The notes beneath the pieces were generated by a model. It ran no database searches. It was not told the DNA's origin and saw only the letters and a program-made list of their open reading frames with translations. From the NCBI GenBank assembly GCA_963457665.1, contig OY735220.1, positions 31,409,716-31,473,715 of the forward strand: DNA of 64,000 nt. Reading direction: 5' to 3'. Shown one piece after another: positions 8,579 to 47,580 of the stretch (the stretch's first letter is position 1; the number at the start of each line of letters is the position of its first letter). The DNA comes from Thysanoteuthis rhombus (taxonomy: Eukaryota; Mollusca; Cephalopoda; Oegopsida; Thysanoteuthidae). The position numbers and the translations under genes are program-made.

Positions 8579-8587
8579 ACAAAAATG

Positions 8588-8628
8588 ATGATTATGATGA
8601 TGATGACGACGACGACAACGACATAAAT
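8588..8628. repeat. GAT/GAC trinucleotide repeat at the LINE 3' end
   Basis: A run of ATGATGATGACGACGACGAC sits immediately after the last recognisable reverse transcriptase codons. It could be the simple-repeat tail of the LINE. Confidence 0.7.
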
Positions 8629-8639
8629 TATTAAAGTTA

Positions 8640-10517
8640 AATCAAAATAGAGAGGTTACACCCCTCTGTTCTGCAAGGTGTCTACAGGAATAAATACACA
8701 TAAATCATTATATAAGATATAACTCGCATGATGATATATGATACACAATAATAATTATTATAACATTATACTAACATATTTTTTCTTTGGAACATTGAGG
8801 ACTATATGGCAAATCCTTTTTTGGGGGTTGGAGACTGAACTGAATATCTGTCAACTTGGAGAAACAGCAGGAAGACATTTGGATATAAGATTTAATAACT
8901 TTGCCATCACAGCTCTTAATATTCAATTTCAAGATTGAATTGTATATTATTTATTATACAGTGAAAATTTGCAATAAAAATTTACAATTTGTATAATGAA
9001 GTAACAAAAAGCTCATTCTGAGAAGAGGCCACCTAAATTTAAGAAATTACATTTTAAGTTATTTGAAACTTTTTAGAAATATCTGTAACTTACATAAATG
9101 AATCAACATAGCCTGCATGTGTACTAGAACTGATCATTTAAAAAAATTTATTCTTTATCTAAAATTATTTAAAAAGAAAACATTTTTTATCTAAAATTAT
9201 CAACAAAAAAAATAGATTTAGGCATTGTTGGTCTCAAAATGACCATATAAACCCCAAAAAAGACTGTTCTGGGAAAACAAAAAAATCTTTTTTTAGATGG
9301 TGCCTAATAGTGTACTCATGCAAATTTTCAAGGTTATAGCCCCCAAAATATGACCATGAAGAATGCTCTCTCCCTCACTCACACACATGAATCTGTTGCC
9401 CACTTGGCTGGTTGGTCAGGCCATATGTGGGACTACAGTGATTCGATTTGTACCTGTAGTGAGAATACATAAAACACTGCTCTCAAACTAGAAAAGAGAG
9501 CGAACAGTAGCTTTTCAGCCAGAAATAGAATTTTTTAATCTTTTAAAATCTTCAAGATTAGCAAATTTTGCCAAACTGTTGATTTTGTAGTAAATAAATC
9601 TTCTATAGATGAATGACTTGCTTTGTCTTTGAAAAAATACTCATCAAATGCAAATGAATTCTTTTCCTAGACTAAACACAACAAACAAGAAAATATTTCA
9701 ATGTCACTGGAACTGATTACCATTCTTGAAACTTTTCTTTTGTTTGCATGAAACAAATGTGTTTCTGTTTTTTTTTATGCTGTCACTGTTCCTGAATGAA
9801 TGGATGAAAGCAGCTTTTGAACTTTTGGCAAAATTCCTAATTATTCTTCTTCTCATACAATTCTTCACACTTTGCTAACATTCCATTGGTTTTTGAATTT
9901 TTTTCTTTTTTTTCACTCCTGCACAGGTAAATAGATTTTCAGACCAACAAAATACGTTTTACCTTGCATTTCAGAAGTAATTGCAAAATTCATTCATAAT
10001 GTCATTTCATGCAAAATAAGCAAATTAGAGTATTTCTTTTGATTTCTTTTTTTTTTTTTTACTTGCTGTAGTGTGTAAGCTCTGGGAGATTTATGAATAA
10101 CAGATAGTTAGATGATGTCTCTCTGAAAGCAGAGTGTTTATTTACAAAGTGTACAATATATCAATTAGCGTCCATCTCTTTGGTAGCAATACAAATATCT
10201 AAATCTTGGTCAAGACTACTACAATAGCAGGAATTTTCTGACTCATTAGAATTTTCACTGAAATCTTGTTAACAGACATTATTAAGTGACTAACAATCAT
10301 TAGTGAGCAAACTTGAGAAACAATGTTGGTAAGACTTTGAAAGTAGATATTTATACTATATTGGTATCATAGATTCTGCAAGTGTAAAACTGGGTGGCTA
10401 GTGATACGGTCTGATATTTTTTGCCAGAAATCAGTGTTTTACTACTGAATGAGTGTATGATATGGATCACATCTATTCCAGTAAAAGATTTCTTATATTT
10501 CCCACTTGTTAATCTAT
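8640..10517. other. No gene recognised
   Basis: AT-rich non-coding DNA between the LINE remnant and the first family A copy. Confidence 0.55.
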
Positions 10518-10916
10518 CAGAAATCTTCAACCAAAACTGTCAAAATAGGTTTCTTCAGTTTCAAGTTGGTCAGGATGGCTGGCTATGTATGTATTATGTA
10601 TATATCATGTATATAGGCTGAACCAATGGAGCAAGAAGGCAGAAAATTTAAACATATGCTCCTTATCATGTCTAAAAAAGGGATCAATTCTCAATGTAAG
10701 TTTATGCTAAATTGGTCACTTAGTTTGTATCCAACAGTATTCATGCTTGTTTTAGGAAATTTCAGACTTTTTTAATGATCAGTGCCAAACAAGAGGTGAG
10801 AGAAGTAACTTATTCATTGATTACCTATTTTTCTAATTGTTCAATTGATCACCCCCAACCAAGCATAATGTGGAAAGAAATTTGTCACAGGACAGTTTCT
10901 ACTGAGTGACTAACCA
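10518..10916 (+). repeat. Dispersed repeat family A, copy 1
   Basis: It contains the family landmarks in order: AACCAAAACTGTC, GGTTTCTTCAG, GGCTGGCTATGTATGTAT, CCAATGGAGC, TTTATGCTAAATTGGTC, TTATTCATTGATTACC and CTGAGTGACTAACCAGA. The copy is complete at both ends but diverged. Confidence 0.8.
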
Positions 10917-11048
10917 GATTTATTATTCTAACTACTCTTACCAAAAAGAATTTTTTTCATTATCCATATAAACTTGTCCTATTTTTTAGTAGAAACTTCA
11001 AAAAAAGTGCTGGAAAAAGAATTTGGTCTTCTTTTTGTTCCCCTAGAT

Positions 11049-14004: not shown

Positions 14005-14118
14005 TGAGGTCATGTGTGTGTGTTGGCAAGAACTTAGCAGCTGATGTCTATCCCCTCAGATAAAGAAAGATGGAACTGGTAGTAAGAGATCATTCACCTG
14101 AGTTATATATGGCAAATA

Positions 14119-14546
14119 TTAGAAACTGTCAACGAAAACTGTAACCAAAACTGTCAACATAGGTTTCTTCAGTTTTTAAGGTGATCTGGCTGGTAGGCTA
14201 TGTGTGTATGTATGTATATATCATGCATACAAGTAGCACCAATGGAGCTAGAGGGCTGAAAATTTTTCTCACCTTACTCTTTATTAAGTCTAGGAAAATG
14301 TTTTTCAAGTCCCATAGCTGTTTATTTTGCCATGCAGGTTTATGCTAAATTGATCCCTTAGTTTGTGTCCAGCAGCATTCATGCTTGTTTTTTGAACATT
14401 CAGACTTTATTATTGATCACTGCAAACCAGAAGGCAAGATAACTAATTTGTTCATTGATTAACCTTTTTCCAATTTCTTTATTAACTAGGCATGTTGCCA
14501 AAAGATATTGGTCATGTGAGAGTTTCTAATGTGCGACTAAGCAGAT
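14119..14546 (+). repeat. Dispersed repeat family A, copy 2
   Basis: It starts TTAGAAACTGTCAACGAAAAC and ends around CCAAAAGATATTGGTCATGTGAGAGTTTCTA. The terminal TAGAAAC and TTTCTA blocks are inverted relative to each other, as for a DNA element with imperfect terminal inverted repeats. It abuts copy 3. Confidence 0.8.
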
Positions 14547-14548
14547 CT

Positions 14549-15025
14549 TTTAGAAACTGTCATCCCATACTTTCAACATACGTTTCTTCAGTTTTCAAGT
14601 TGGTTCAGCTGGCAATCTGGTTGATTGAATGTCTGACTGGCTATATATGTATCATGTATAAGGCTGTACCAATGGAGCTTGAGGAATTAAAATTTAAACA
14701 TCTACTTCTTAATATGTCTCTAAGAGAATGATTTTTTTTTAAATCACCCTCACCCCCATCTCCACCTGCCCCAATATTTTTAGTGGAAGGGTTCAATTTT
14801 CAATGTAAGTTTGTGCTAAATTGATCATAGTTTGTGCCCACTTACTTTATTTATGCTTAGTTTTAAAAAATTCAGACTTTTTTTAGTGATCATTGCCTAG
14901 CACAAGGCAAGTGAAGTAACTTATCCATTGATCACCCGTTTTTCTAATTTTTTGATTGATCACCCTCAATACGGCATGCTGCCAAAAGATTTTGGTCACA
15001 TGATGTTTTTATTGAGTGACTAACC
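14549..15025 (+). repeat. Dispersed repeat family A, copy 3
   Basis: It starts TTTTAGAAACTGTCATC directly after copy 2 and ends TTGGTCACATGATGTTTTTATTGAGTGACTAACCAGG. The head-to-tail arrangement with copy 2 suggests a tandem duplication or insertion of one copy at the end of another. Confidence 0.8.
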
Positions 15026-15769
15026 AGGCTTGTCTCAGATAACGCAGATTTGCCTTGGATATTCATTTTTTTAAATTGGAAATATCAAGAATAAATAAAT
15101 CTATTGAAATTTGAGCTGTGTAGTCTTGGGAATTTTCTAACCAATTATTTGTCAATTTTCAGGGCTGCTTATGTATATCTCCATAAACATTTAGAACATT
15201 TAATGGCAGTCAGTATGATGTTATTGATTATTTTGCAGTTGCTTGATGCATTTGTAAGTTGCTTTTATACAAAAAGTTATCTCACATTGAGGAATTTAAC
15301 ATAGCTGATAAAAAGCTGTGTGTATGTTTATATGTATGTATGAGAGGCAGTGTGTATTTGAGTTAGAAAGTGGAGAAACTGCTGATTCTCACTTTGGGCC
15401 AATTTTTCTCCCACTGATGATACGTGCCAAAATTGCTCCTTTTATACCAAAACTTTTTAGACATCAAAGGGAAGGAACTGATAGACATAGCATAACTGAG
15501 AGTAGCACATGTTCAGGCTTCTAGGAATTCATCAGATGCTTATAAAAACAATACTGTCACACAATCTAAAGTTCAAGGAAGCAGCCACCTTTGACCTTAA
15601 ACAGAAGGACTGAACTGACACTTGAAAAAGTATATCTGGATGGTTTTTCATTTCTTTTATTTTGCATCTTTTCTGTGGTTCTCTGTAGTATTAGGTATAT
15701 TTTAAACTACTTAACTTATTCTATTTTCATCTTCATGGTATTCAATCACTATCAAATGATTAGTAGGCT

Positions 15770-17184: not shown

Positions 17185-17249
<65 letters not shown>

Positions 17250-18048
17250 ATATATGTGTATATATACATATATATATGTATGTATATATATGTGTATATA
17301 TACATATATATATGTATGTATATATATGTGTATATATACATATATATATGTATGTATATATATGTGTATATATATATATATATATGTATGTATATATATG
17401 TGTATATATATATATATATATGTATGTATATATATGTGTATATATATATATATATATATGTATGTATATATATGTGTGTATATATATATATATATATGTA
17501 TGTATATATATGTGTATATATATATATATATATGTATGTATATATATGTGTATATATATATATATATATGTATGTATATATATGTGTATATATATATATA
17601 TATGTATGTATATATATGTGTATATATATATATATATATGTATGTATATATATGTGTATATATATATATATATATGTATGTATATATATGTGTATATATA
17701 TATATATATATGTATGTGTATGTATGTATATATATGTGTATATATATATGTATGTGTATGTGTGTATATATATATGTATGTGTATGTATGTATATATATG
17801 TGTATATATATGTATATGTATGTATGCATATATATGTGTATATATATATGTATGTATATATATATATGTATATATGCATGTATACATATCTATATATATA
17901 TGTATGTATATATATCTCTATATATATGTATGTGTATCTATATATGTGTGTGTGTGTGTGAGTTAATATATGTATGTGTGTGTCTATATATGTGTGTGTG
18001 TCTGTGTTTATATTTGTATGAGTGTGGGTATGTGTATATATATATATT
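17185..18048. repeat. TA/TG higher-order satellite, about 860 bp
   Basis: A TA tract is followed by about sixteen copies of a 32-38-bp unit with the layout (TA)n TGTATGTA TATATATG TG. It then degrades into TG- and TC-containing variants toward 18050. The long open frames on both strands (up to 306 codons of Tyr/Ile/Cys/His/Thr) are repeat artefacts. Confidence 0.95.
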
Positions 18049-18268: not shown

Positions 18269-18309
<41 letters not shown>

Positions 18310-18648
18310 CATATGTATGCATACAGGCTGTGTTAATGGAGCTAAAGGAAAATTTAAACATTTACTCATTATATCTGGAAAAATGTTGTTTGTTTTTCTT
18401 AAAATTCCCCTCTAAATAGGTTTTCAGTGGAGATTCAGTTTGAAATGTAAGTTTATCCTAAGTTGATCCCTTAATTTGTATCCGACAGCATCCTAACTTA
18501 TTTAATGAGCACTGTCAAACAAAAGGCGAGTGAGGTAACTTATTCATTGATCACTTCTTTTTCCAATTTTTTAATTGATCAACCCCAACATGGGCACATT
18601 GCCAAAAGATGTTGGTCAGGTGATGGTTTCTATTGAGTGACTAACTAG
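18222..18648 (+). repeat. Dispersed repeat family A, copy 4, with a (CTGG)n expansion
   Basis: It runs from TTTTAGAAACCATTGGCC to GATGGTTTCTATTGAGTGACTAAC. The internal CTGGCTGGC motif, which occurs once or twice in other copies, is expanded here to about nine CTGG units (18273-18309). Confidence 0.82.
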
Positions 18649-18896
18649 ACATGTCATTTAATTTCTTTATCACAAGTTAGTCTGAAATGTAAATTTCAAA
18701 TTACTACAACTGCTTGATTTTATATTCTGCATAAAATGTGTTCATCAGTTGGAAAGTGTTTAATGAAACATGTTCTGGTATGTGAATTATTTGGCAAAAA
18801 TGCTATTCTGCAGCCCATGCAGCTTGATTTTTTCAATTAATGTAATTTCTGCTTTTTTTTTTCATTATCTGATACTGGCATAGTAACCCTTAAAAT

Positions 18897-19075: not shown

Positions 19076-20099
19076 ATATATGTGGATTATAATTAAAGTT
19101 GTAGAACGGGGGGGGGGGCTAACGGGGCATTCCTGATCAGGCCTTCTTACCTTAGGTGGAGTCGTTTGAAAGTTGGAACCTTATACTCAATAAAGGATAA
19201 AGGTGCTGTTCAATTGTAACCCCAACCTAATAAAAAAAAGATGTATCCATGGTATTATTCTTTGATGGTAACAGGGTTGCCACTAAGATATGCTGTAGAC
19301 ACCACCACCCACACTTGGAAATAAATCCATCACACACACCCCTCCATCCCACTCCCTGGAAAAGTGTCAGCGGATACCAGTGCACATCACTAATTGCAAT
19401 TCTACTATGAAATCAACATATAAGAAACTTTTTCTGGAGAAATTAAAGTCCAGTTTGAGAAAGAAGAAAAAAAGTGTTTTTTTTTCAAGAATATGTCAAA
19501 GTAGGTAGTATTACATGTAAATCCTTTTGTAGCAAGAGAAAACATAGAACAGCAGATCATTGGTGTTGGCTACTTACCACTTTAAACCATTTGGTAAGGT
19601 AATAAGTAATAGAAGAGGCCAACATCCTTTGCTCAACCTAAAAGAAGGGCCAGGTTTAGATGTGAGAGAAGTACAGGTAGGACATAGGTTGGGAAATAGA
19701 GGGTGGGAAAGAGAAAAAGAGGGAAAGTAATTAGAAAGGATGAGAGAAAGTTTTGCTAGTGCAAGTAAATGGCAAAGGGTGCCTATCTATCATATTGAGT
19801 TACACATATATTACCTGAGTATCTTTTATTCTTGTACTCTTGCCAAAAAGTGGGGAAGTGCCATTCTGGGATAATTTTATCACTGTTGCCATGACAACTG
19901 CTGGGCAAGAAGTAAGTGGTAGGTAAAGAACCCAGTAATCTATCAGCAGTTTATAGATATACATTCCTTGATATAGAGTTGCTGCTGATGCCTCCACAAC
20001 TGACACTACTCTTCTGTATCACTCACAGTGCTGCCCAACATGTGAGAGTATGCATACACATGTGCTGTGCTGGTCTGGCCCTTACAACAGCTTACTTAT

Positions 20100-20691
20100 A
20101 TTCCTCAGTGTAGATAGATAGATAGTTGAGTAGGTGGACCGGCTGCAAGGAGAGAACGCAAAGAGAGAGAGAGAGAGAGAGTAATAGAGGGAGGGACTGG
20201 AAACTATCTTGACTCTCCAAAGTTCTTACTAGCACCACTACCACTATCATCATCTCTGCCTCCCCCCCTGCTGCCCTCTCATTAGTTGTTGTTGTTCTCC
20301 TTCTTTTTCATCACTTACTCGTTTGCTAGTGTCAGCTGCAGCACCACAGCCAACAGGGATGGACCAGCAGCAGCATGAGGAGTTGAGGCAGCAACAGCCA
20401 TCGTGATCTCTCTAAAGTTCTCCTCAAGAAAAATATAGTCACCAACATTTTCCCTTTTTACAACTGCTGCATTATAAACAACAACAAAAACAATACTCTT
20501 TGCTGCAGAGGACTTTTTTAAAAAGGGAAAAATAAAAAAACAACTTAGTCTGTCATCACCACCACCATTGAACTATTGATTGATTATTGAACTGAACCTA
20601 CCTGTTGAGTTTGAACTTACCCCCTCAATTGTTGTATTTGAGTGATTAATTCCAAGGACTAGTTCTTTTTCTTCTCTCTAACAAAACAAAC
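20100..20691 (+). promoter_or_regulatory. Candidate alternative promoter / 5' UTR
   Basis: The 600 bp before the ATG at 20692 differ from the flanking intron-like DNA. They hold GATA repeats (20112-20125), a GA tract (20160-20181), C-rich tri-nucleotide-like stretches (CACCACTACCACTATC, CAGCAGCAGCATGAGG, CACCACCACC) and a 15-codon Gln-rich upstream ORF at 20359-20406. Such composition is common in animal 5' UTRs. No clear TATA box or initiator was found, so this is a compositional argument only. Confidence 0.3.
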
Positions 20692-20932
20692 ATGGACTAC
20701 CTTCGAAGACACCGCCATAACATGAATCTGCTGCTTACCGATCTTTACAGGTATAAAGATGAAGATGAAGTTGTTATACCAACTCGAAGACATCGCCTTT
20801 CCTATAATGATGGAATAGGAATACAATCATATATCTTGGATGATCTCAACTTTTCTGATGCTGGTTCATATTCCTGCAAAGCTGTCAATAAATTTGGACA
20901 TATTAACACCACTTCAGATCTTGATATTCAAG
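20692..20932 (+). CDS. Ig exon 1: C-terminal half of an Ig domain, with a possible in-frame alternative start
   Basis: The internal-exon form begins at 20751 after a TTTACAG acceptor. Its first base would complete a split Trp codon (TG|G), as in other exons of this gene. The domain half reads Y-K-D-E-D-E, then D-A-G-S-Y-S-C-K-A-V-N, which are strands C to G of an I-set Ig. The frame is also open upstream to an ATG at 20692 in a good context (AAACAAACATGG), with an in-frame TAA at 20647. This adds 20 basic and leucine-rich residues (MDYLRRHR...) in place of the Trp. The exon could therefore be either internal or the first coding exon of a shorter isoform. The donor AAG|GTATGT at 20932/20933 is strong and leaves phase 1. 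The part from 20751 is near certain as coding. The 20692 start is roughly even odds. Confidence 0.8.
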
Positions 20933-21661
20933 GTATGTCAAGATTATACTCAAAGTTGCTCATTTCATGTCTTTAAATAATTGAAGAATTTTAAAAATGT
21001 TTTGAAAGCTCCTTTTAGATAACTCTCTTGTTTCTCCTGTCCAATTTTAAACTTGTTGCAAGCCAACTCTTTAAATTTACTATAATGAATAGATATATTG
21101 ATTACAAATAATTGAGAGACAAATTTTGAAAATCATGTTTCTTTCATATTCGAAAGAGTTCTTTCAGCATTTCAAATTCAGATATCAAGATATTTTGCAT
21201 CGCTCCTTCTGACCAAACAACTTTTTGATACTTTCAAAGAGTTTTTTGGACTATTGCATGTCTTCTCATTGTTTCCATGTTGATGACTCTCCTCGAAACT
21301 ATAGACAGTAACTTTTAGTACTTTTAGATGAAGTAAGAAAATTCATCTGCAGAACATGTGTAGAATCATTACTCTTCAATACTTAGTTATTCTGTAACAA
21401 GGCTTATTTTCTGATGTTGAGCTTCGATGAACAAGTAACAAACATCTCTAAGCAAAACTTTCTTCTCCTCCTCCCTTGTATCTCAAACACCTAACATGTG
21501 TTAATGTTTTGTGTTATCTAAGAAACATTATCTATCTTCTCTACTTTTGTCATAATTTTATCCTTAAATTTTCTCTTTCCTACACAATTGGATAATCTTT
21601 TTTATGGTTTGTGAATTTTTTTTGCCAAATTTTTCTGATAACATGCCTTGTATTTTATCAG

Positions 21662-21707
21662 AGGTCCGTCATCGGAGAAAGAAGAAAGAAGATTTGGACC
21701 TAGAAAG
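21662..21707 (+). CDS. Ig exon 2: short basic linker exon
   Basis: This 46-nt exon follows a TTTTATCAG acceptor and ends at AAAG|GTAATG. It enters in phase 1 from exon 1 and leaves in phase 2 into exon 3, keeping the frame open. The product is a charged linker, E-V-R-H-R-R-K-K-K-E-D-L-D-L-E, between two Ig domains. A run of basic residues followed by acidic ones is compatible with an exposed inter-domain linker. No domain is recognisable. It is too short to stand alone, so the support is the frame fit and the quality of both splice sites. Confidence 0.7.
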
Positions 21708-23382
21708 GTAATGTATGCCTTGCTGCACCTCTTACATTTGCTTTAAGCTTTCTTTTGATTTACCAAAAAATTAAACTCTAGAGATATGTTTGGTATAAAT
21801 TTGTATCAGATTTATTCAGTCAGTGAATTATGATATTTAGATTTCAAATTGGCTCAAGAAATTCAGCATTTTTCCCAAAAGGATTAAGAGAAATGTTACT
21901 TATCAGTTTCTCAGAAATCATTGAACAATATGGACAGTGATAAATCCACATTGAGATTCCTTGTCTGAAGAGAAATGATATTTTTAGCAGATGTAGATGC
22001 TGGATATCTGCTTCCCCTTTCCTTCTAGTGGTTAGCAGGTAGTACTTCACTGGCCAGCCACAGATATCAGCACCAAACTCTGAGTGGCATAGTTGGGCAG
22101 GTGAGGGAAGGAAGGAATGAAAGATAGACAGACGGGCAGCAAGAATGCAGCCCCATAGCCTACAAACTATTAAGTTTCTGTTATCTATTAGTAGTGTAGT
22201 TATACAGATGTGATCTTCTGCAGTGAACAGTGGGAGTAAATAGGGAAAGTGAGAAGCCGCCTGTCTTCTCTCCCTCCCTGCTGGCTTCTTCTTCTAGCTT
22301 TAACTTTTTGGGCAAATTAGGCATTTCTCCAGCTCTTGTAGCATAGTAGCTTCTATAGTATCAAGTGGCATTTCTTAAAAAAGTTCCCTCCTACGTGGAA
22401 GTGAAAGCTGCCTTCAAACCAGTACAATCAACAGTTTGTTTCACTTGAGCTGGAAAAATAAACAGCAGCTTCTGCCCTAAGTCCCATCATTTTGCCTCGC
22501 CTCTTTTTGTGAAAAATAAACCCGAGAACAATGATCATGTTTCATTTACATAATACCATTCTACCTAGTTTAACTTGTAAGCCTTTGCTTACGAACTGCT
22601 GTCTTTAATTTGAACCACCGTAAGCAGCCAATAAAACAGGCCAGTCCTTTGCTCTTCATATAACTGAGTGTAAGAAAGATCGGGATTGAAATTGATGGAT
22701 TAGATGTTGTGGGATTTGAACCAGTTAATAGACCAGGAGTTGAACAGTCGGTTGACTGATACTTAAACATATGGTCATCTGCATACAAATATATTTAGTA
22801 CATACATATAATGATTTGATTCTTGACCCTACATAACTAATTTCTACCAGGAGTCATTTTATGATTGAATTCTCAACAAAAACAGGGGATTGAACTACAC
22901 TAAGCATTCCATTTTGATCAAGTTGAATCTCTTATATTAATTTTTTGGGGGATGGATATCTTTATCAAGGGAAATAACTCCTGATCAAGATTATTCCCCT
23001 TTGATCAGTAGGAGAAAAAAAATTTTCAGTTTTTAGAAGAGTCCCATTTTTTCAATTTTATTCTTTAAAGAGTTCTACTGTCAATACAAGAGATCCATAA
23101 ATTAGAAAGTCAATCAAAGTTATCAGGATAATTGATTCACAACTGTTGATACTGAGACTTACCTTTGGTGTCCTTTAAAATCACAGTTCAACTTCCACTT
23201 TGAGAGAATATAACAAACTGCAATAACATTGTCAATTTGTTAGATATGTTAGATTTGTGGTTTAGGGATGTTAGAATAGACAACAGCATATACTTTTACA
23301 GAAACTATTCAATACTTCATTTTTAGATTATTAATCTTTTTAAAAACTTTAGAGTAAGAGAATACGATGAAATGAACAGGCC

Positions 23383-23835
23383 TGGTTTGTCAATCAATAG
23401 AAACTGTGACACAACCAACATCTTTTGGCAGCATGCTTTATTGGGGGTGATCAATTAAAAAATTGGAAAAAGCGGTGATCAATGAGTGATTTACTTTTCT
23501 TGTTTTTGTTGGGCAGTGATCACAAAAAAATTAAAAAAACAAGTGTGAATACTGTTACACACGAACTTAGTGACAAATTTAGGATGAACTTACATAGTAA
23601 GTTAACCCCCCCCCCAAAAAAACTTATTTGGCGGGGAAATTTTTAAAAACAATAAAAACAATGTTTTTCTTGACATGATAAAGAATAAATGTTTATATTT
23701 TCAGCCCCCTAGATCCAATGACGTGTCCTGTACATGTGATACATACATAGCCAGCCAGCATTACTATTACTTAAAAATTGAAGAACCCTATAGAGACGAT
23801 ATTGACATTTTTGGTTGACAGTTTCTAAAATTCAA
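23383..23835 (-). repeat. Dispersed repeat family A, copy 5
   Basis: The inverted landmarks are visible: CAATAGAAACTGTGACACAACC at one end, TTTTGGCAGCATGC, GTGATCAATGAG, TACATACATAGCCAGCC, and TTGGTTGACAGTTTCTAAAA at the other end. It lies in the intron between Ig exons 2 and 3, antisense to the gene. Confidence 0.8.
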
Positions 23836-24049
23836 TTTAAAACAGTTTGAATAGGTTAACTGATAAGGAATAAGGTAGAGAAATTTATGATATTTCTACA
23901 AGGGGAATTATAATAATTGAAACATTGTAAGATGATAGTGAAGACTTAGAGATAGAGTAGAATTATCTTTTAGCATTTTAAGTAAACAAGTTCAATTGGT
24001 CATAGCATGAATAATGTTTAATAAATTGTTTTTGTATACTTTTCTTCAG

Positions 24050-24165
24050 TCGTTACATCACTTATGATGACAGCTATGTGGACCCTCATTCCCCTCCAAT
24101 CATCACTTTACCTTTGGTTGATGAGGCCAGGACCATTGGTGAAAGTGTTGAATTTAACATCAAAG
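24050..24165 (+). CDS. Ig exon 3: linker plus N-terminal strands of Ig domain B
   Basis: The acceptor is TTTTCTTCAG and the donor AAAG|GTATAC. After a tyrosine- and aspartate-rich linker (Y-I-T-Y-D-D-S-Y) the frame enters P-P-I-I-T-L-P and then G-E-S-V-E-F-N-I-K, the A to B strands of an I-set Ig. The usual strand B cysteine (F-x-C-x-V) is replaced: the sequence reads F-N-I-K-V across the junction with exon 4. Muscle Ig domains are cytoplasmic and do not depend on the disulfide, so this is tolerable. The exon is 116 nt, entering in phase 2 and leaving in phase 1. Confidence 0.85.
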
Positions 24166-24762
24166 GTATACATACATTATTTTCTTCATAAAGGCTTTTC
24201 CAATGGAAATCAAAGAGGAAAATAAAAATGAAAATTTCAAGGCATTACTTTCATTTCCATCTCAAAAAAGAGTTCTGTTCATTTACTTACTTGCTCATCT
24301 TTATTCTTTTTTGTCAACTTGAGATGTGTTTTTAGGACTGCATTATAACTTCTGAAACTTCTGTTTCATATCTTATCAAAAGTCATCTCTCCAAAATGAA
24401 AGAATTGATTTAATTTCATTAGAACTATTGTAATTTTACTTACTTTATTTTACACGCATGCTTTATGCACAATATCTCTAATATCAAAATACAAATATCT
24501 ATCACTGTTATTTTTGGACAATACCCTTGTCTATTCAATAAACAACAAATTTATTAATCAGATAAGTCATGATAAATGTCACTGTTGTTAAATACACATT
24601 ATCATAAATGTTATCATTGATTTTTCTGTAAAATTTTTTCATATTGATAAGTCATCTTAGCAGGCATCGAATGGAATATTAAAGACTTACTACAATGACA
24701 TTAAGGAAAATTCATGCTTACTATTCCTTGCAAATTTACATTAATGATATTCTGTTTTGTAG

Positions 24763-24966
24763 TACGCAGCCATACTCCTGTGGAAATCTCATGGAGGCAT
24801 TATGAAGATATGATTCTGCCATCAGAGAAATATAGGTTGAAAAAAGATGTTGATGAATACCATCTCCATGTCTCTGATCTTAATCTTGAGGATGGTGGGC
24901 GCTGGCAATGTATAGCTGTCAATTCTTATGGACAGACAGAGACCACCTGCAAATTGACTGTTCACA
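24763..24966 (+). CDS. Ig exon 4: C-terminal part of Ig domain B
   Basis: The acceptor is TTCTGTTTTGTAG and the donor CACA|GTGAGT. Domain B continues from strand B: V-E-I-S-W-R-H-Y is strand C with its Trp, and L-E-D-G-G-R-W-Q-C-I-A-V-N-S-Y-G is the F strand with the conserved Cys and Asn. It ends K-L-T-V-H, the G strand, at a phase-1 domain boundary typical of Ig-repeat genes. The ATG-led reading upstream of 24763 is intronic read-through. Confidence 0.9.
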
Positions 24967-25450
24967 GTGAGTAATATCTAATTATTATTAGAATAACTTT
25001 AACCTGAATGTTAGAAGTAATTTCTTTGAACTTTTCTATCTCAAACACTTATCTTATCATTAAGTAAGTTTTGTTATTGTATACATTTATGTACCTGCTC
25101 CATTTTGAAACAAAGTGCAATCTATTTTTCCCGTAGCAGCATTATCAAAATTATCCAAAAAAAAGTGATTGTGATTATTCTTCTATATCTCATCAGATTT
25201 CCAGAAAAACATTTTTCTAATGCTCAATAAATTCCAACATTTGGAGTTTTCCAAAATATTTACTTATTAAGAAAACAATTACTTTTATAAAACTGCAGAC
25301 TATTATCTAATCAAGGATATTATTAAAGTCTTCTAGAATGACAAGAGAAAATCTTATTTGAACAAATACAATTCCGTAGACTTTGAGAATTTTAATAATT
25401 TGATATTCATCAATTCTAATGCAATTTGTTTTTGCTTGTTTAACTTCCAG

Positions 25451-25577
25451 ATTATACACTTGAAAAATACCGTCCTCCCCAAATCGATCAAGAACTGCAT
25501 AATTTTGTGGTAGCTGAAGGAGCAGAAGCAAGATTTACATGTAAAATCTCTGCTAACCCAACTCCTGAAGTTACATG
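25451..25577 (+). CDS. Ig exon 5: N-terminal half of Ig domain C
   Basis: The acceptor TTAACTTCCAG and the donor ATG|GTAAGT are both strong. The exon encodes R-P-P-Q-I-D (strand A), V-A-E-G-A-E-A-R-F-T-C (A' and B strands with the Cys), and N-P-T-P-E-V-T up to the first two bases of the strand C Trp codon. The Trp is completed by the first base of exon 6. Length is 127 nt, entering in phase 1 and leaving in phase 2. Confidence 0.92.
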
Positions 25578-25696
25578 GTAAGTGAGCACTTGCTCATTCA
25601 GGAATCTTAAAATGGCATGTGATATTTGGATATATGTGGGTTCATGGGTTTGGTTTTTACTATTGGAACCTTGAAAATGATATTAATTTCATAGGT

Positions 25697-26075
25697 CTGG
25701 TTAATCACTTAATGAAAATCGTCATGTGACCAATGTCTTTTGGCAGCATGCTATGTTGGACATAATCAATAAGAAAAATTGGAAAAGGGGGTTATTTGTT
25801 GGGCAGTGATCACAAAAAAATCTGAATTTCCAATTAAAAGAAGTGGATACAAACAAAAGGATCAATTTAGCATAAACTTACATTGCAAACTGAACCCCCC
25901 TCTAAAAAAAGGGAGATGTTTTTTGTGGACATCATAAAGAATGAATTTTCAAATTTTTAGTTGTCTAGCTAGGTATGGACTATACATGTCATACATACAT
26001 ACATACATACATAGCCAGACCAACTAGAAAACTGAAAGAAACCCATGCTGACAGTTTTGGTTGACAGATTCTAAT
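25697..26075 (-). repeat. Dispersed repeat family A, copy 6, with an ATAC expansion
   Basis: GACCAATGTCTTTTGGCAGC opens the copy and GACAGTTTTGGTTGACAG closes it. The TGTATGTAT position of other copies is expanded to about seven ATAC units (25983-26011). It lies in the intron splitting Ig domain C. Confidence 0.8.
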
Positions 26076-26365
26076 TGAACGTTTTCGAAAGGTGTATTTG
26101 TAACACAACGTTTAGTAAAAGAATTAAATTTTTCTCTTTGAGTTGAAAGTATTGGTTAACTTGCTGAAAAAGGGTTATAAACTTATTATTTTTTATGAAT
26201 TTCTCTCATGTATCCAAATTCTATCAACTTAACAGTCCAAATTAGGACTTTTACATAAAAACAAAGGGTTTTCTTAGACTAAATCTATTGATTGAAAGTA
26301 TTACTCAATTTATCTGTTCATTCTGAATAGAATGCTCATAGATTTTTTTAAATTTTTTATTTCAG

Positions 26366-26541
26366 GTACAAGAACAGGATACCTATAGAAAATAAAGGTC
26401 CCTACAGATTTATGCAAAGATCTGATGACACTTTTATCCTTACTATTGATGAAGTGGTAAGAGAAGACATTGGTTACTATATGTGCCAAGCAACTAACAA
26501 AGCTGGTTCAAAATCCACTGAAGCCAAACTTGCTGTTGAAA
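26366..26541 (+). CDS. Ig exon 6: C-terminal half of Ig domain C
   Basis: The acceptor is TTTATTTCAG. The first base completes TGG, followed by Y-K-N-R-I-P. The strand F signature is R-E-D-I-G-Y-Y-M-C-Q-A-T-N-K-A-G, and the G strand is E-A-K-L-A-V-E. The donor GAAA|GTGAGT leaves phase 1. With exon 5 this makes a complete I-set domain of about 90 residues. Confidence 0.93.
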
Positions 26542-27195
26542 GTGAGTGATAATTCTCGACTCTCGACTCCATGATTTTATATTTCCTAAACTTGAGTGTT
26601 TAAAGATATAAAGTTTCACCTAAACATATTTTCTATTAAAACTGTGGTGCCTTTACAAAAGCAAGAGCAGCGCATTTCCTCTACAAAGAAAAATGATGTT
26701 TCAAAATCAGAATAGTAGTTTTTCATATACTTCATAATCAATTTTCTAAATTTGTAGAAGTGAAAGTTTTTCTTTTTGATAATCAGAGTAAACCAACATT
26801 GCTCCAGATGAATGACTTTTAAGAAATTTCTCCAAGTTAACTGTTTTATCAATAAATTGTTAGTATATTTATACTTATGAAGAATTTATAAAAATTTGTA
26901 TAAGATATAAATATTATGCATATGCAAACAGGTCATCCTTTGTAAAATTAAATAGTCATTACCATTTCTTCGAATCGAATTAATTAGTAACTCACTATTA
27001 TTAGATAAATGTTATCAATAGATTATTAGTGATAAACTTTTGATGTTAATAAATGAAGTATAATACAGAGAAGTGATTATCCATTATATTATAACTTAAC
27101 TAAAGATTAACTATACATTACACAGAAAAAAATTGTAATGGAAGTCTTAGCAAGTGTAGGTGATTTAATAAAAATGACTTTCTGTTTTGTAACAG

Positions 27196-27446
27196 CTGTG
27201 GAGAAACCATTATCTTTATTGGAAAGAAACCCACTTCAGAAAGGACGTGTGAAAAGTGAGAGATTTGGCAGCCAAAAGGGCAAATATGCCTGTATCCCAG
27301 AGTTCACCACCAAGCTGAAGACTAAAACTGTTCCAGCAGATAGTACCGTGAAGCTAACATGCTCTGTGTCAGGTGTCCCTGAACCTGATATCCAGTGGTA
27401 CAAGAATGGAGAGAAGATTTATAGCAGCTTAAATTGCTGCATGAGG
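27196..27446 (+). CDS. Ig exon 7: linker plus N-terminal part of Ig domain D
   Basis: The acceptor is TTGTAACAG and the donor AGG|GTAAAT. A linker of about 35 residues rich in Lys, Arg and Ser (L-Q-K-G-R-V-K-S-E-R) comes first. It is followed by P-E-F-T-T-K-L-K, then D-S-T-V-K-L-T-C-S-V-S-G-V-P-E-P-D-I-Q-W-Y-K-N-G, an almost textbook I-set A to C strand region like those of titin and UNC-89. The exon runs past the Trp, so domain D is split later than its neighbours, in phase 0 after C-C-M-R. Confidence 0.93.
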
Positions 27447-27896
27447 GTAAATTACTTATTAGTTACATTTATTTAAGCTTGGTATATTTACTTGTAAAAA
27501 GAGACCATCCCAACAGGTCTCCCAGTAGAATACATATCAATCATGTTGATATTTCTGAACTTTGAAAATTTGATATTCTGTCTAGGGAGTAAAATGAAAC
27601 CATGTGAGAGCCTCAGTACATCAAATCACAGTTAACTCTTTGAAGACCCTAGATATAGACTCTAATCTAAAGGGGGTAATCATATATATACAAGCACAGA
27701 TCGGCGGGGGGGGGGACCTGATCTTGTATGAGCAAAGCCGAGTTAACATTTTTTTAAATAAATATCAAAACAAGGGAAATTTATAAGTAAAAAGACCTAC
27801 ATAATTGCAATCTTTTTTTATATATATACATCATTTTTTTTATTCAAGTTTGTTTAAGTGAAATACTCATAACAAAGTTAATTTGATTCTTTCCAG

Positions 27897-28020
27897 AACA
27901 ACAATGGACTGGTGTCCCTTGAAATAGCTGTTGCATCCCATGAAAATGAAGGTCAATACATCTGTGAAGCCTCCAACAGTGAAGGAACAGTCAGCTGCGG
28001 TGCTCAAATCACTGTTGAAG
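27897..28020 (+). CDS. Ig exon 8: C-terminal part of Ig domain D
   Basis: The acceptor is GATTCTTTCCAG and the donor GAAG|GTAATT. The frame encodes G-L-V-S-L-E-I (strand E) and E-N-E-G-Q-Y-I-C-E-A-S-N-S-E-G (strand F), ending A-Q-I-T-V-E. It is 124 nt, entering in phase 0 and leaving in phase 1. No ATG lies in the exon, so simple ORF calling misses it. Confidence 0.92.
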
Positions 28021-28232
28021 GTAATTATTCAAAAATATTCAGCATTTTAAGTGTTGCCTTTTTAATGTAATCCACACTTTTAATGAAAATCTTTTGAGTT
28101 TGAATGTCCAAAATAACTACTGCAGACATTAGTTAGTTTCTTTGTATAATAATTTACTATTTTAAGAAAAAAGAATTTATGTTTCAAATATTGAATTATT
28201 CAAAGTAAAAAATTGGATATTTTCCTCTCTAG

Positions 28233-28374
28233 GTGATAAGAAACCAGTTGGCGAATCTTCTGAAAATGAAGCTCCCATCTTTATTGAAACTCCTCTGTGT
28301 AGCACTGTAGTTGTTGGAGGTGATGCTGTGTTTCAGTGTGTTGCCAAAAGTAACCCTATGCCTTCATTTAAATG
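28233..28374 (+). CDS. Ig exon 9: N-terminal half of Ig domain E
   Basis: The acceptor is TTTCCTCTCTAG and the donor AATG|GTAAGT. A short acidic linker (G-D-K-K-P-V-G-E-S-S-E-N-E) leads into A-P-I-F-I-E-T-P, then G-G-D-A-V-F-Q-C-V-A-K-S-N-P-M-P-S-F-K. It ends inside the strand C Trp codon. It is 142 nt, entering in phase 1 and leaving in phase 2. Confidence 0.92.
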
Positions 28375-28598
28375 GTAAGTTTACTTTCAAATTATTCACA
28401 ATTGAATAGAGGATTGATATCTTTTAGTTAATGTTTGCTATAATAGAAGTCTTTTTAAATGTATTGAATTTATTGGTTTTATTATTCATTAATAGAAGTG
28501 TAATGATTTTGGATGTATTCTATATTTTTAGATTGTTTATTTCAAATTGTATCATATTTATATTTTGATTTATTTTATGCAACCCTTTCTTTTTATAG

Positions 28599-28774
28599 GA
28601 CTAAAGATGGTCAAAATGTAGATGAGAATGATCACTGCTCATTGTTTGTGGATAGCCATGGGGGATGCAGGCTTGTCGTTCATAATGTGCAGGAACACGA
28701 TGCTGGTCTATATATGTGTATGGCCCATAACAACATGGGCAGAACAAAATGCTCTACAAGATTACGCATTGTTG
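28599..28774 (+). CDS. Ig exon 10: C-terminal half of Ig domain E
   Basis: The acceptor is CTTTTTATAG and the donor GTTG|GTATGT. The first base completes the Trp codon, then T-K-D-G-Q-N-V. Strand F is E-H-D-A-G-L-Y-M-C-M-A-H-N-N-M-G. The D and E strand region contains two extra cysteines (D-H-C-S, G-G-C-R). The length, 176 nt, is identical to that of exon 6, which suggests that the two domain cassettes arose by duplication. Confidence 0.93.
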
Positions 28775-28972
28775 GTATGTACTATTCTCTGTCAACAGTA
28801 CTATTCTGCATTTGTCCAGCTCATTGTAGAAGTAACTGTTGGCTTTATTGATATTTTAGTGGTCTTCATGTAGGTAAATCAAGAAGCCTATGATGAGAAA
28901 AATGTATTTTTTAAAACAAGTATAAATTTTTCAACTAATAATAAATAGCAAGTGGAGAGTATTATTCAGTGG

Positions 28973-29022
28973 TTGTTGCTGCTGCTGCTGTTGCTGTTGT
29001 TGTTGTTGTTGTCGTTGTTGTT

Positions 29023-29056
<34 letters not shown>

Positions 29057-29075
29057 CGACAACGATAACGATGAT
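28973..29075. repeat. (GTT/GCT)n followed by (ATG)n repeat
   Basis: About 48 bp of GTTGTTGCTGCTGCTG-type repeat pass into about ten ATG units and then GACAACGATAACGATGATG. It is intronic (between Ig exons 10 and 11). The Val/Met/Thr homopolymer frame is an artefact. Confidence 0.9.
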
Positions 29076-29549
29076 GATAAAGGATTTTTTTAATTTTTTG
29101 ATATTAGCAATTGATTTTCTCAAAAAATTATTCGCACAATTATCAAAGCATAGATTTACAAAAAAAAAATTAGATATGATTCTTTTCAGATTATTTTCTC
29201 TGATATATAAAAAATAGAATAATGTTAGACAAGAAAGATATTTGGATTGATATTGATTTGAGTTCGCTTGCTTTTACTCCCCTAGACTTCTTCAAATTCA
29301 AACTGAATCAAATACCATATGACTTCTCTTACTCAAGATCTTTATAATTACTACCACATATTTTTTGTTTCTTTTGATATTCGTAAGGCACTTAGACCAT
29401 TATTTTTCAACCAGGAGCAATTATAAACACCATTTTCTAAAAGGTGCAAATAGCTTAGCTACATATATTCAATAAGAAGAAAATATTTCTTCAATTCCTA
29501 TCATTTTTTATAAAGAATTTGATTATCATTTAATTTATTTTATTTTTAG

Positions 29550-29771
29550 GTCAAGAAGAAGCCCATGAACATCGAGGATTATCTGGAGATCGGACAGCTG
29601 ACCGCAAACTTCAGAAGTATGAGAAAATCCCTGACCCTGATATCTCAAACCGTATGATGATGTCAGGAAGGCCACCTTTCTTTACCTTGATGCTGCCCAA
29701 GTTGATTGAACTCAATGAGGGAGATAAACTGCGCTTAGATTGCTCTCTTGAAGGTTATCCTTCACCTGTCG
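29550..29771 (+). CDS. Ig exon 11: charged linker plus N-terminal part of Ig domain F
   Basis: The acceptor is TTTATTTTTAG and the donor GTCG|GTAAGT. About 40 residues of charged linker (Q-E-E-A-H-E-H-R, then D-R-T-A-D-R-K-L-Q-K-Y-E-K) precede R-P-P-F-F-T-L-M-L-P-K and N-E-G-D-K-L-R-L-D-C-S-L-E-G-Y-P-S-P-V, strands A to B of an I-set Ig. It is 222 nt, phase 1 to phase 1, so it is symmetric. Confidence 0.92.
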
Positions 29772-30471
29772 GTAAGTTATCTACCTGTAATCGTTGATTC
29801 ACCTGGTATTATCTCATTTATTTTGTCACATATCTATATATCTCTATCTGTATCTATCTATATATAAGTTCCTTAGCAAAAGCAACATGAGCCTGTTATG
29901 TGCTATCGATCAAAAAATACATCATACTCCTGATACCTATATAAGCAGTTGCTCTTAGATTATATTACCGGTAATTTTTATCATCATAGGAATAGTAATC
30001 TGAATCGACAGAGTATTAGTATCTAGTAAAAATCTGAAACCAGATGTCTCCCTATAGTCTTGTCGTATTAGAATTAAAGGAGTATAAAAGTAGAACACTC
30101 TAGCTCTTGTAGTATCCAACTACAAAATCATATTTCTTTGCTAAGGATTGTGTAAATTTATTTTGCAAACTAAAATATAAAGTGTATAATAAATTCTTTT
30201 ACTGACATTCATACATCTTGTTGGAAATATCACTGCAGATTTGATTTCTTTGATTAATTCTTATAACTTAGTTTATGATTGAAGGCAGATATCAAATATT
30301 GTAAAAGTATAATCAAAAATAATAATTTCTATTTATAAATTTTAGTGAAAATATTGAGATAAAAAAAATAATTACTCATAGACCAGAGTTACCATAGAAT
30401 TAAATACTAAGGATTAGTTTTCAAATTACTGAATGTAAATTACTATTTAAATTGTTGCAATTTCCTTTCAG

Positions 30472-30676
30472 TTACCTGGCAAAAAGGCGTACGGGAACTT
30501 GTCTACAATGCTCGCCACCGTATAATTGCATATGGAACCTTACAGACCCTCGAAATTCCATCAGTGCTGATTACGGATCATGGTGAATATTTCGTACGAG
30601 CTGCTAATGTTTATGGCATGATTGAGAGTTCCTGTCTCGTCAAAGTTAACAAGAAGGGCAAAAAAATGTCAGAACG
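30472..30676 (+). CDS. Ig exon 12: C-terminal part of Ig domain F plus basic tail
   Basis: The acceptor is TTTCCTTTCAG and the donor AACG|GTAAGT. The exon opens V-T-W-Q-K-G, with strand C and its Trp. It continues to T-L-Q-T-L-E-I-P and D-H-G-E-Y-F-V-R-A-A-N-V-Y-G. The canonical strand F Cys is Val here (Y-F-V-R), so this domain lacks one half of the usual cysteine pair. A lysine-rich tail (N-K-K-G-K-K-M-S-E-R) follows the G strand. It leaves in phase 2. Confidence 0.92.
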
Positions 30677-30749
30677 GTAAGTTTGTTTGCACAAATTAAT
30701 TTTCATGAATGTTCTTTGTTTTATTTTGGAAATAAATAAAAAAGGTGAT

Positions 30750-31095
30750 TGTTTATCCATGTAAACTCCTTATGGAGCATAGAGCCTTAACCACTCTGCT
30801 GGGGTTTCAGTATCCAGACATTTTTGGGGGGGTGGCATTGCTAGCCCCACATCAAACCCTCCTCTTCTACTCAGGCTTTGGATGAGCTACCGCAACAGCT
30901 GAGCTGTAGGTTTTTTCCTGTCAGAGTAACCTTCTTTCAGATGAACTACTGTACAGAGCTAAATAGCATCAACTACCCTGCTATTTGCTCACAGCTAGGG
31001 GGTAGGTGGATTCATGCCTTTCTCAAGGGCATTAGTACATAAATTGGTCCACCGATTCCATTTTCTGTGCCATACTTACTCCATTCCACTCTTAC
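30750..31095. repeat. Dispersed repeat family C, copy 1
   Basis: It shares GATTCATGCCTTTCTCAAGG, GCATTAGTACA, ACTACCCTGCTATTTGCTCA and GATTCCATTTTC with the 32.57-kb copy. The GAGCCTTAACCACTCTGCTG block at 30781-30800 resembles an inverted tRNA A box, so this may be SINE-derived. It lies in the intron between Ig exons 12 and 13. Confidence 0.5.
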
Positions 31096-31391
31096 AAAAT
31101 AAGTTTAGTGCCAAGATTTTTTTCATTTCAATATCTAAAGTTTATAATCTACTGATTAATATAAATATCATCATTCACTGAAGCTAGTCACTTTACAAAC
31201 ATCAATCGTGTAATAGATAAAGAACTTTTCCACAAATTCATTGAGACTCTTCATAGTATAATTATTATACAGCACTCTGGATTGATTTGTTTCAAAAAGT
31301 GATTCCTTTTAAATCCATACATTTTGAATATTTTTTGTATGTATGTTTTATACATCAAGAGCTCACCTTTTTTTCTTATTTTTGTCTCCAG

Positions 31392-31462
31392 AGAATATAA
31401 CAAAATGAAAGTTCCTGCATCTATGCCACATGGTGCACTAGATGGTGATGGTCCACTGCAGG
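31392..31462 (+). CDS. Ig exon 13: short linker exon
   Basis: The acceptor is TTTGTCTCCAG and the donor GCAGG|GTAAGT. The exon enters in phase 2, completing an Arg codon (CG|A), and leaves in phase 1. It encodes R-E-Y-N-K-M-K-V-P-A-S-M-P-H-G and D-G-D-G-P-L-Q, with no recognisable domain. Support is the exact phase fit to exon 12 and two good splice sites. Confidence 0.75.
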
Positions 31463-31572
31463 GTAAGTTGATCATTTATTGTTCTTACAAATACATTTCA
31501 GAACATACACAGCACAAGGAAAAACTCCCCCCTTTTAATAACATAGGTACATACTGCCAATTAATAAATAAA

Positions 31573-31604
31573 TATATATATATATATATTGTATATATAT
31601 ATAT
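31573..31604. repeat. (TA)n microsatellite
   Basis: A short TA array in the intron after Ig exon 13. Confidence 0.9.
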
Positions 31605-32564
31605 ACAAATGTCAAGAATGGAAATCAGAAGAAATTAGGAATCTGTTAAGTGCCATGAAGTTATAAAAAATTACTCTGGATTTAGGATGATTCATCAGTC
31701 TTTTACTCACTATTCTTTAGAATGTATTCTTTAGATTAAAAATCTACAATTTTTTAAGTAGTCCTAATTTCTTATATGAATCATTGTCATTATTGATTTT
31801 TTTTTACTAGTTTTACTTTCATCTTATTTCTGTTGCTTTTCATCATAATGCTCAGGTTATTTTCATATTCTATGACCATTAAGTCAGCATCATGATCTAA
31901 TATAAAAAATTAAGCTTGTGGAAAATAGGATGAAAGGAAAATTAGTAAAAAAATTAACAATCATACATATTGTTTGAGATATTTATTTATGTCAAACAAT
32001 AATAATATATCTAATATAATATATTTACAGATCATTTTAAATGAGTCAACATACTAAATAATTCTATAGCAAAAAATAGAATATAACCATACTTTAATCT
32101 CAGAAATCAGTAATAATTAAACTCATATGATTTAGAAAATTACTTAATTAAGCATACGATGTAGATTCTAAAAGCTGTTATTACAAAGATCATTTTTGAG
32201 AGTATATTTTTTCTTATAGCAAACTAGTATATTGTTACGGTCTTGATAATTATACTATCATCTGGTTCACTGGTTAAATTATGAGCAAGACTTTTTATTT
32301 GATGATCTGCTATTTGATAGCACTACTATCTACCTAAAAGTACAGATAGCATTTCTATGAAATTCTGCCAATATTACTATTATCTTTATTAGTTATTCAT
32401 CTAAATTATTTTTTTAGATTGTTAATAATTTCTTTTTTATATGATACTGAGCTTTCAGTTTGTACTAAAATGCAATCATATCAAGCTTAGCTCAACTCAG
32501 TTGTTCCCTTGTCATGTGATTCATAAGGGAATGATTTTCAGAGACCCTATCATTGTTTGTAGCT

Positions 32565-32760
32565 ATTGTGGGTTTTCATAGGGCCTGGGTGCTTACAACC
32601 TAGAGAGGCTCAAACTACTCTGCTATTTACTTATGGGGGAAGAAGTACATTCATGCCTTTTCCAAAGGCATTAGTGCAAAGTGATAATAGACTATCCCAA
32701 CCAGTGTTTCAGCTTGATTCACAAATTCCATCCTCCATTAAATGTTAGACCACTCACCCC
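32565..32760. repeat. Dispersed repeat family C, copy 2
   Basis: AACTACTCTGCTATTTACTT, CATTCATGCCTTTTCCAAAG and GGCATTAGTGCA match copy 1 at 30970-31035. It lies in the intron before the microexon. Confidence 0.5.
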
Positions 32761-33000
32761 TCCCTCAATCCTATCAAGCTCTTATTTCCAATAAATGGGA
32801 GTCTTGAACACTTATTGAATTTTTCTAACCTGTCTACGAAGTTTATTTATTGACTGACTAGTAAACGAATTCATATAGTTTATGTAGTATTACTTGAAAG
32901 GCTGTAGAATTCACCTTAGAATTTTAGTAACTATTTGATTTAGCTATGTTTAACTAAGTTAAAAAATTTCAAGTCATGATAAGCAACTCCTTTTCTACAG

Positions 33001-33039
33001 GTCACAAAGAAAAACGTTTAGTAGAACCAAAACCACAAG
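33001..33039 (+). CDS. Candidate 39-nt microexon (linker)
   Basis: A pyrimidine-rich acceptor (CTCCTTTTCTACAG) is followed by 39 nt open in the required frame, encoding H-K-E-K-R-L-V-E-P-K-P-Q. The donor is CAAG|GTATTT, weaker than the others. The exon is symmetric, phase 1 to phase 1. Skipping it would join exon 13 to the 47.2-kb exon without a frame change, so it could be a cassette exon. It is the least certain member of the gene. Confidence 0.55.
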
Positions 33040-33769: not shown

Positions 33770-33965
33770 AGCATTTCCCAACCATGATTTGAAATCACAA
33801 CCAAATGATTGTTCATGACTCTCTTACCAACTGAGTCAAACTGACAAGTCTTATATATTTACAAATTTATTTATCATATATACAATACAAAAGTTGAAAT
33901 AATCATCTTCAGGCATAATAGAAGTAGGAATGGTGTTTGACTCTGCTGCAGCCAGGCTTACTTAT
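33770..33965 (-). repeat. tRNA-derived SINE-like repeat
   Basis: On the minus strand TTTGACTCAGTTGGTAAGAG resembles a tRNA A box, and GGTTGTGATTTCAAATCATG about 30 bp later resembles a B box. A 3' body shared with 15770-16005 lies upstream on that strand. The A box is degenerate, so transcription by Pol III is doubtful. Confidence 0.5.
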
Positions 33966-40404: not shown

Positions 40405-40407
<3 letters not shown>

Positions 40408-47195: not shown

Positions 47196-47580
47196 CTCCA
47201 TTCTTCGTCAAACATCTACCATACACAATTGATGTCATGGAAGGCACTGATCTACGTTTGGACTGTTCAGTTGCAGGTCAATCTAAGGGTGAACAATCTG
47301 ATACTGATGGTGACTACAATAGAGTTGAGGGGGGTGTTACAGGAGAAGAAAAAGAAGAAGGTGAAAGTCGGACATTGGAGCCTGCAGGGGATATGACATC
47401 AGGTCATGCCTCTGCTTCTGAGATGACCTCCTCCACTGCTTCTGCAGCTGCTGATAGCAGTGAGGAACAAACTAAAAAAACTGATCCATCTTTTACTGAC
47501 AAATTTGATGATACAGTTGTAACCGAAGGTGAGGATGCTGTATTGGAATGTAAGACCTCTGGAGATTCAGACATCAGATG
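47196..47580 (+). CDS. Ig exon 15: two consecutive N-terminal Ig halves separated by an acidic S/T-rich linker
   Basis: The acceptor is TTATTTTCAG and the donor GATG|GTGAGT. Residues 1 to about 28 read A-P-F-F-V-K-H-L-P, then E-G-T-D-L-R-L-D-C-S-V-A-G, the A to B strands of an I-set domain. No strand C Trp follows. Instead there are about 70 residues rich in Glu, Gly, Ser and Thr (such as G-E-E-K-E-E-G-E-S and S-S-T-A-S-A-A-A-D-S-S). A second N-terminal half follows: D-P-S-F-T-D-K-F, then E-G-E-D-A-V-L-E-C-K-T-S-G-D-S-D-I-R, up to the split Trp codon. The rest of that domain must lie beyond a long intron, and I could not find it in the window. It is 385 nt, entering in phase 1 and leaving in phase 2. 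Confidence 0.9.

Follow-up and report, generated by a model that had tools for sequence, protein, structure and literature searches.

The window, by which we mean the whole 64,000-nt stretch of DNA that was analysed, has a GC content of 31.3% and carries on its + strand a gene encoding an array of I-set immunoglobulin (Ig) domains. Exons were predicted with a scorer trained on nine hand-read exons, in combination with Ig profiles made from exons of the window and a check of the phase. The scorer gave 21 rows, 13 of which were kept, and the exon at 24763-24966 was added from the Ig profiles and a boundary check. The eight rows that were omitted are 7021-7137, 7305, 7828, 22029, 33001 (possible), 33524, 41584 and 52324. 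The predicted exons are the following:

20751..20932, + strand, C-terminal half of an I-set Ig domain; skips 1 base and leaves 1 base
21662..21707, + strand, basic linker
24050..24165, + strand, linker and I-set N part
24763..24966, + strand, I-set C part (one of four boundary options)
25451..25577, + strand, I-set N half, ends in the TG of a split Trp codon
26366..26541, + strand, I-set C half, starts with the G of a split Trp codon
27196..27446, + strand, linker and I-set N part
27897..28020, + strand, I-set C part
28233..28374, + strand, I-set N half, ends in the TG of a split Trp codon
28599..28774, + strand, I-set C half, starts with the G of a split Trp codon
29550..29771, + strand, linker and I-set N part
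30472..30676, + strand, I-set C part and basic tail
31392..31462, + strand, linker
47196..47580, + strand, two I-set N halves around a Ser/Glu-rich linker, ends in the TG of a split Trp codon

The 13 predicted exons from 20751 to 31462 chain in phase and give a product of 681 residues with six I-set stretches. For this joined product the I-set total is 365.4 bits, compared to a Pfam gathering cut-off of 23.7, and by the exon map it contains five complete I-set domains and one half, which is the first. For the last exon (47196-47580) no completing I-set C half was recognised in 47581-64000. In the long gap from 31462 to 47196 a possible phase-compatible mini-exon of 39 nt is seen at 33001-33039 (+ strand; HKEKRLVEPKPQ).

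Among the best 60 of 124 matches listed, the top PDB chains are those of titin (3b43, E 9.6e-53; 6fwx, E 1.6e-43), followed by Roundabout 2 and DSCAM at 1.2e-40, so that the family is only approximately known. The first-pass annotation had suggested that the gene could encode a giant muscle protein. The six I-set stretches and titin as the best solved match agree with this, whereas a rough motif scan of the window, beyond which the gene appears to extend, gave no convincing motif of a kinase or FnIII domain. Judged from these matches, the identity as a giant muscle protein is plausible.

Several other features were observed in the window. An AT/ATGT-rich minisatellite with 11 copies of a 72-bp unit is located at 17185-17995, and dispersed repeats, which are ~65-82% alike and present in both orientations, are found at 10512-10925, 14115-15034, 18300-18662, 23367-23832, 25693-26070 and 38602-38884, partly within introns of the Ig gene. 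A tRNA-Leu-like sequence with the anticodon taa (41817-41906, - strand; ARAGORN; Rfam tRNA 34.1 bits) lies far from the candidate start codon described below, and the tRNA/Rfam scan at gathering scores returned only this one match. The open frame of 132 amino acids at 8236-8634 (+ strand) has no Pfam match at E up to 0.01 and reads like a fragment of a retrotransposon reverse transcriptase. One of the omitted scorer rows, 7021-7137 (+ strand), is exon-like with a score of 21.6, which is as high as that of some kept rows; its ORF is without Pfam match at E up to 0.01, and the row is out of phase with 20751.

The acceptor at 20751 and its possible upstream partner

The first predicted exon is preceded by the following site:

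20749..20750, + strand, splice acceptor AG, 0.5 bits when scored left-one-out, 12th of 14

The acceptor reads ...TTTACAG|GTATAAAG at 20750/20751 and the donor after 20932 reads CAAG|GTATGT. Pfam I-set matches residues 22-78 (E 6.4e-7), and since the match is limited to profile positions 36-89 of 90, exon 20751-20932 encodes the C-terminal half of the domain. In a short form from 20692 the first Ig domain would be incomplete in the same way. The first base of the exon would complete a phase-2 split codon (G|TATAAAG, W-YKD). A TG before the GT is also found at three other exon ends (25577, 28374 and 47580), and for two of the three the completing G begins the next exon (26366 and 28599) at the same place of the Ig fold. 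As this split-Trp design recurs, 20751 is probably a real internal acceptor by descent, though a weak one. It ranks within the top 19.4% of all AGs and above the acceptors of 28599 and 24763, and 10 of the 67 other AGs in 19900-20760 outscore it. The acceptor had been described before as normal and with a split Trp codon; its site, phase and TG|G design are retained here, but with regard to its strength the description was too favourable.

When a profile built from the window's own N halves was used, no I-set N half was recognised in 1-20750, and the best + strand match had an E of 5.3. In five independent held-out tests this profile found four halves, one of which had an E as high as 0.25, and missed that at 24050. 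Six of all seven held-out tests led to recovery, two of the seven not being independent because both halves share one ORF. On the + strand 34 TG|GTR donors are present upstream; four of them end open frames of at least 28 codons, and none of these four frames matches Pfam at E up to 10. The partner exon may sit beyond the window, as gaps of ~14-16 kb occur elsewhere in the gene.

These searches also fit a different history, in which 20692 is the sole start, the upstream exons have been lost, the acceptor at 20751 survives as a relic and all products open with half an Ig domain. Neither the profile nor the four open frames at TG|GTR donors gave a partner in 1-20750, and the acceptor is the third weakest of the 14 when scored left-one-out. 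However, its AG and the exon phase are intact and fit the split-Trp design of the other exons, and with one of the five independent held-out halves missed the reach of the N-half profile is limited. We regard a sole start at 20692 as rather improbable.

The open frame from 20692

Upstream of the acceptor the following features were identified:

20647..20649, + strand, TAA stop in frame with the ATG at 20692, bounds the open frame (direct reading and scripts)
20692..20694, + strand, candidate initiator ATG, context AAACATGG
20692..20750, + strand, coding-like extension 5' of the acceptor, MDYLRRHRHNMNLLLTDLY followed by two bases of an Arg codon; codon score +3.0, 3 CpG, GC 0.46

By reading and by scripts, the frame of the ATG at 20692 is open from 20650 to a stop at 20974, which confirms the first-pass annotation in its claim that the frame stays open upstream to a well-placed ATG and is bounded by the stop at 20647. 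As a feature of the sequence, an in-frame initiator Met is therefore present in the part of the intron contiguous with exon 20751-20932. Its context is favourable, with A at -3 and G at +4. When the acceptor is read through, the split codon is AGG (Arg), whereas splicing to 20751 would make it TG|G (Trp). That a start at this position would yield half an Ig domain without its Trp was correctly seen before, as only the I-set C half is encoded and the Arg codon replaces the Trp. An example of a tryptic peptide from the extension is HNMNLLLTDLYR.

An in-frame upstream ATG without intervening stop is found at six of the 14 predicted acceptors of the gene (five of the 13 others), and for 832 of the 10,047 AG/frame combinations in the window the open frame includes an ATG 57 nt or more upstream. 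On their own, open frame and upstream ATG are ordinary in this gene and not above chance. A purine at -3 together with G at +4 is seen for 101 of the 1,432 ATGs in the window; among the six extensions such a favourable context occurs in two, 20692 and 27138 (G at -3, G at +4), and the other four are without it.

Codon usage was scored with a model trained on the other 13 exons, with exon 20751-20932 held out. The 19 codons from 20692 score +3.0 bits; among 475 open stretches of this length that begin with ATG in non-coding DNA, 15 reach this value. For the remaining five extensions, which are 16 to 28 codons long, the codon scores are -4.5, -9.5, -4.0, -20.5 and -4.9, and none of them contains CpG; among the six in-frame upstream ATGs of the gene only 20692 shows a positive codon score, and it is likewise the only one with CpG. 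Within the held-out exon, the seven 19-codon stretches that were sampled gave scores between -1.0 and 6.3, so that the codon score separates only moderately. Three CpG in 59 nt are reached by 966 of 60,814 non-coding windows of this size and by 7.4% of 1,614 exonic ones.

When context, codon score and ATG gap are taken together, the candidate itself is the only one that remains from the 19,671 non-coding AG/frame combinations of the two strands; as the conditions and cut-offs were taken from 20692 after it had been seen, this number is a measure of rarity and should not be read as a clean P value. Among the 1,732 combinations that have an open ATG 45 nt or more upstream the triple combination is again found once, and context and score alone are shared by eight. 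It is the combination of features, and no single one, that distinguishes 20692. The region 31339-31392 (+ strand), which served as a control, has an in-frame ATG read through the acceptor and an ATG-free stretch of 325 nt before it, with a poor context and a negative codon score.

The joint rarity of context, codon score and ATG-free leader, and the fact that all five other extensions are negative in codon score and free of CpG, argue against the view that exon 20751 is only internal and that the open frame, the ATG and the UTR-like look of the upstream DNA arose by chance. According to this view the partner exon would be located beyond the window and the intron would be longer than 20.7 kb. 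It is favoured by the in-frame upstream ATGs at five of the 13 other acceptors, including 27138 with its shared context and 31339 with its 325-nt ATG-free leader, by the long gaps in the gene (31462 to 47196, and from 47581 to the window end, where no C half was recognised), by the split-Trp pattern and by promoter motifs that do not exceed chance. We see an only internal exon as a serious possibility, to which we nevertheless give clearly less than even weight.

The extension could also be coding within an internal exon whose acceptor lies further upstream, e.g., with an exon start at 20657, and the ATG at 20692 would then specify an internal Met. The frame is open from 20650 and the acceptor for 20657 has 2.8 bits, which is above that of 20751. 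However, 10 of the 14 predicted acceptors score above 2.8 bits, such an exon would lack the Trp and the leader is ATG-poor. An acceptor further upstream is therefore very improbable.

The leader and the promoter question

The DNA 5' of the candidate start codon contains three features of relevance:

20359..20406, + strand, 15-codon upstream ORF in a favourable context, in the mRNA only if transcription starts before 20359
20376..20691, + strand, candidate 5' untranslated leader of 316 nt, no ATG in any + frame
20473..20478, + strand, TATAAA match, weak, would put the start near 20500 if real

The leader has no ATG, compared to 3.9 expected from dinucleotide shuffles (P = 0.0086), and only three of 3,586 GC-matched windows are free of ATG. 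Gaps from ATG to ATG as long as 316 nt were counted four times in 1,431 on the + strand (20692 included) and twice in 1,375 on the - strand; one of the four long + strand gaps precedes the in-frame ATG at 31339 and is, with 325 nt, longer than that of the candidate. The description of the DNA 5' of 20692 as UTR-like is supported by this lack of ATG over 316 nt, next to an extension that is coding-like.

No promoter signal beyond chance is found 5' of 20692 by sequence motifs. TATAAA occurs once on the + strand in 20000-20700, which is about chance (1.66 expected on both strands). In the same interval one CAGCTG is present and no matches for CArG, MEF2 or MCAT were found (0.09, 0.66 and 0.34 expected), an absence that says little because fewer than one of each was expected. 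In 20100-20690 the GC content is 0.413 compared to 0.313 for the window, and the CpG observed/expected ratio is 0.16 compared to 0.26; on the basis of the latter value a CpG island at 20100-20690 was rejected. Of the earlier interpretation, the well-placed start codon, the coding-like extension and the ATG-poor leader are supported; for the internal promoter that had been proposed for this region no signal stands out, the motifs being near chance and the region poor in CpG.

Short repeats are present 5' of 20692 (GATA at 20111-20125, AG at 20162-20181, ACC and AAC). The GA, GATA and tri-nucleotide repeats had been counted as signs of a 5' UTR; they do exist, but are weak evidence as other parts of the window also contain simple repeats, of different kinds. 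A mobile-element origin of the leader was rejected, since a blastn search of the window with 19501-20760 as query (E up to 1e-3) returned only the region itself and a GA run.

The top donor in 19900-20750 has 5.6 bits compared to 6.1-13.3 bits (in-sample) for the 14 predicted exon donors, so that RNA initiated in this interval may well continue into the exon without being spliced. When scored left-one-out, two of the 14 predicted exon donors fall below 5.6 bits (2.9 and 4.9), and a weak upstream donor is therefore still conceivable.

A candidate hybrid first/internal exon and known internal starts

As the best explanation we propose that exon 20751-20932 is a hybrid first/internal exon, similar to that of titin Cronos, from which a short form starts at 20692; our confidence in this reading of the sequence is about even. 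In the long transcripts, 20751 would be joined to an upstream exon whose last two bases are TG, and this junction would complete the Trp of the I-set domain. For the second transcript class, RNA polymerase would start in the intron some 100-600 bases upstream, the acceptor at 20751 would be read through for want of an upstream donor, and translation would begin at the ATG at 20692. The short product would be N-terminally shortened and begin with MDYLRRHRHNMNLLLTDLYR, followed by half an Ig domain, an orphan in which Arg replaces Trp, and then by the basic linker and the downstream Ig domains. The orphan half is probably not folded as a normal Ig domain.

Direct observations in support of the hybrid exon are the open frame with its acceptor and donor, the split-Trp pattern, the start context, the coding-like extension and the ATG-free leader. 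Against it stand the frequent occurrence of an open frame with ATG (6 of 14), the shared context at 27138 and the longer leader at 31339 (325 nt), as well as the weak acceptor, the CpG-poor leader, motifs at chance and the lack of a recognised partner exon in 1-20750. The N-terminal half Ig domain also counts against it, because it is structurally awkward. Initiation of transcription in the intron, use of the acceptor, the upstream partner exon, the role of the protein and any expression in muscle are what we infer.

A more far-reaching suggestion, which we make tentatively and consider doubtful, is a Cronos-like internal start inside an Ig domain, where a basic, Leu-rich segment replaces the N half and the core Trp and provides a new N-terminus; such a start would represent a counterpart, independent or ancient, of the internal promoter in titin. 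A literature search found no publications on this locus. A short Ig product from an internal start is made by SPEG/APEG-1.

In the cited account of titin Cronos, the transcription start lies in an intron, 110 bp (zebrafish) or 256-257 bp (human and mouse) 5' of the exon, with an in-frame Met 7 codons (zebrafish) or 12 codons (human, mouse) before the exon, and 5'-RACE, RNA-seq, PCR, H3K4me3 and DNase data are given for it (Zou et al., 2015; PMC4720518). The candidate resembles this arrangement in that a start is proposed in the intron directly 5' of an internal exon, that the gene encodes several Ig domains and that the Met lies ~20 codons before the exon. In contrast to Cronos as described there, the candidate start is predicted from sequence, its exon encodes half an Ig domain and its kinship to titin, suggested by the best PDB matches, is putative.

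Exons that are both terminal and internal are described as a recognised class, defined from transcript data (PMC10256964, citing Fiszbein 2022). The exon at 20751, for which this is proposed from sequence, would likewise act as an internal exon in part of the transcripts and, in others, as a terminal exon, here the first. For telokin (MYLK) an intronic promoter and a 17 kDa product of the last three exons are reported (PMC9343278). The proposed short form would share with it an intronic promoter within a muscle Ig-protein gene and a short C-terminal product; unlike in this description of telokin, the candidate first exon is followed by 12 or more other predicted exons, and no kinase was recognised in the window by the rough scan. 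Kalirin (KALRN) is described as a titin-related Ig-containing gene with internal promoters that lead to shorter isoforms (PMC12198301), and when compared by description only, the present gene is similar in containing Ig domains and in the shorter isoform proposed from an internal start.

By comparison with these systems, the candidate would be a new member of the known Cronos-type/hybrid-exon kind. Its unusual feature is the start within an Ig domain, which leaves half a domain and replaces the core Trp by Arg. If an unrelated or distant Ig-array gene shares this layout, internal starts would appear as a recurring route to short isoforms of large Ig proteins.
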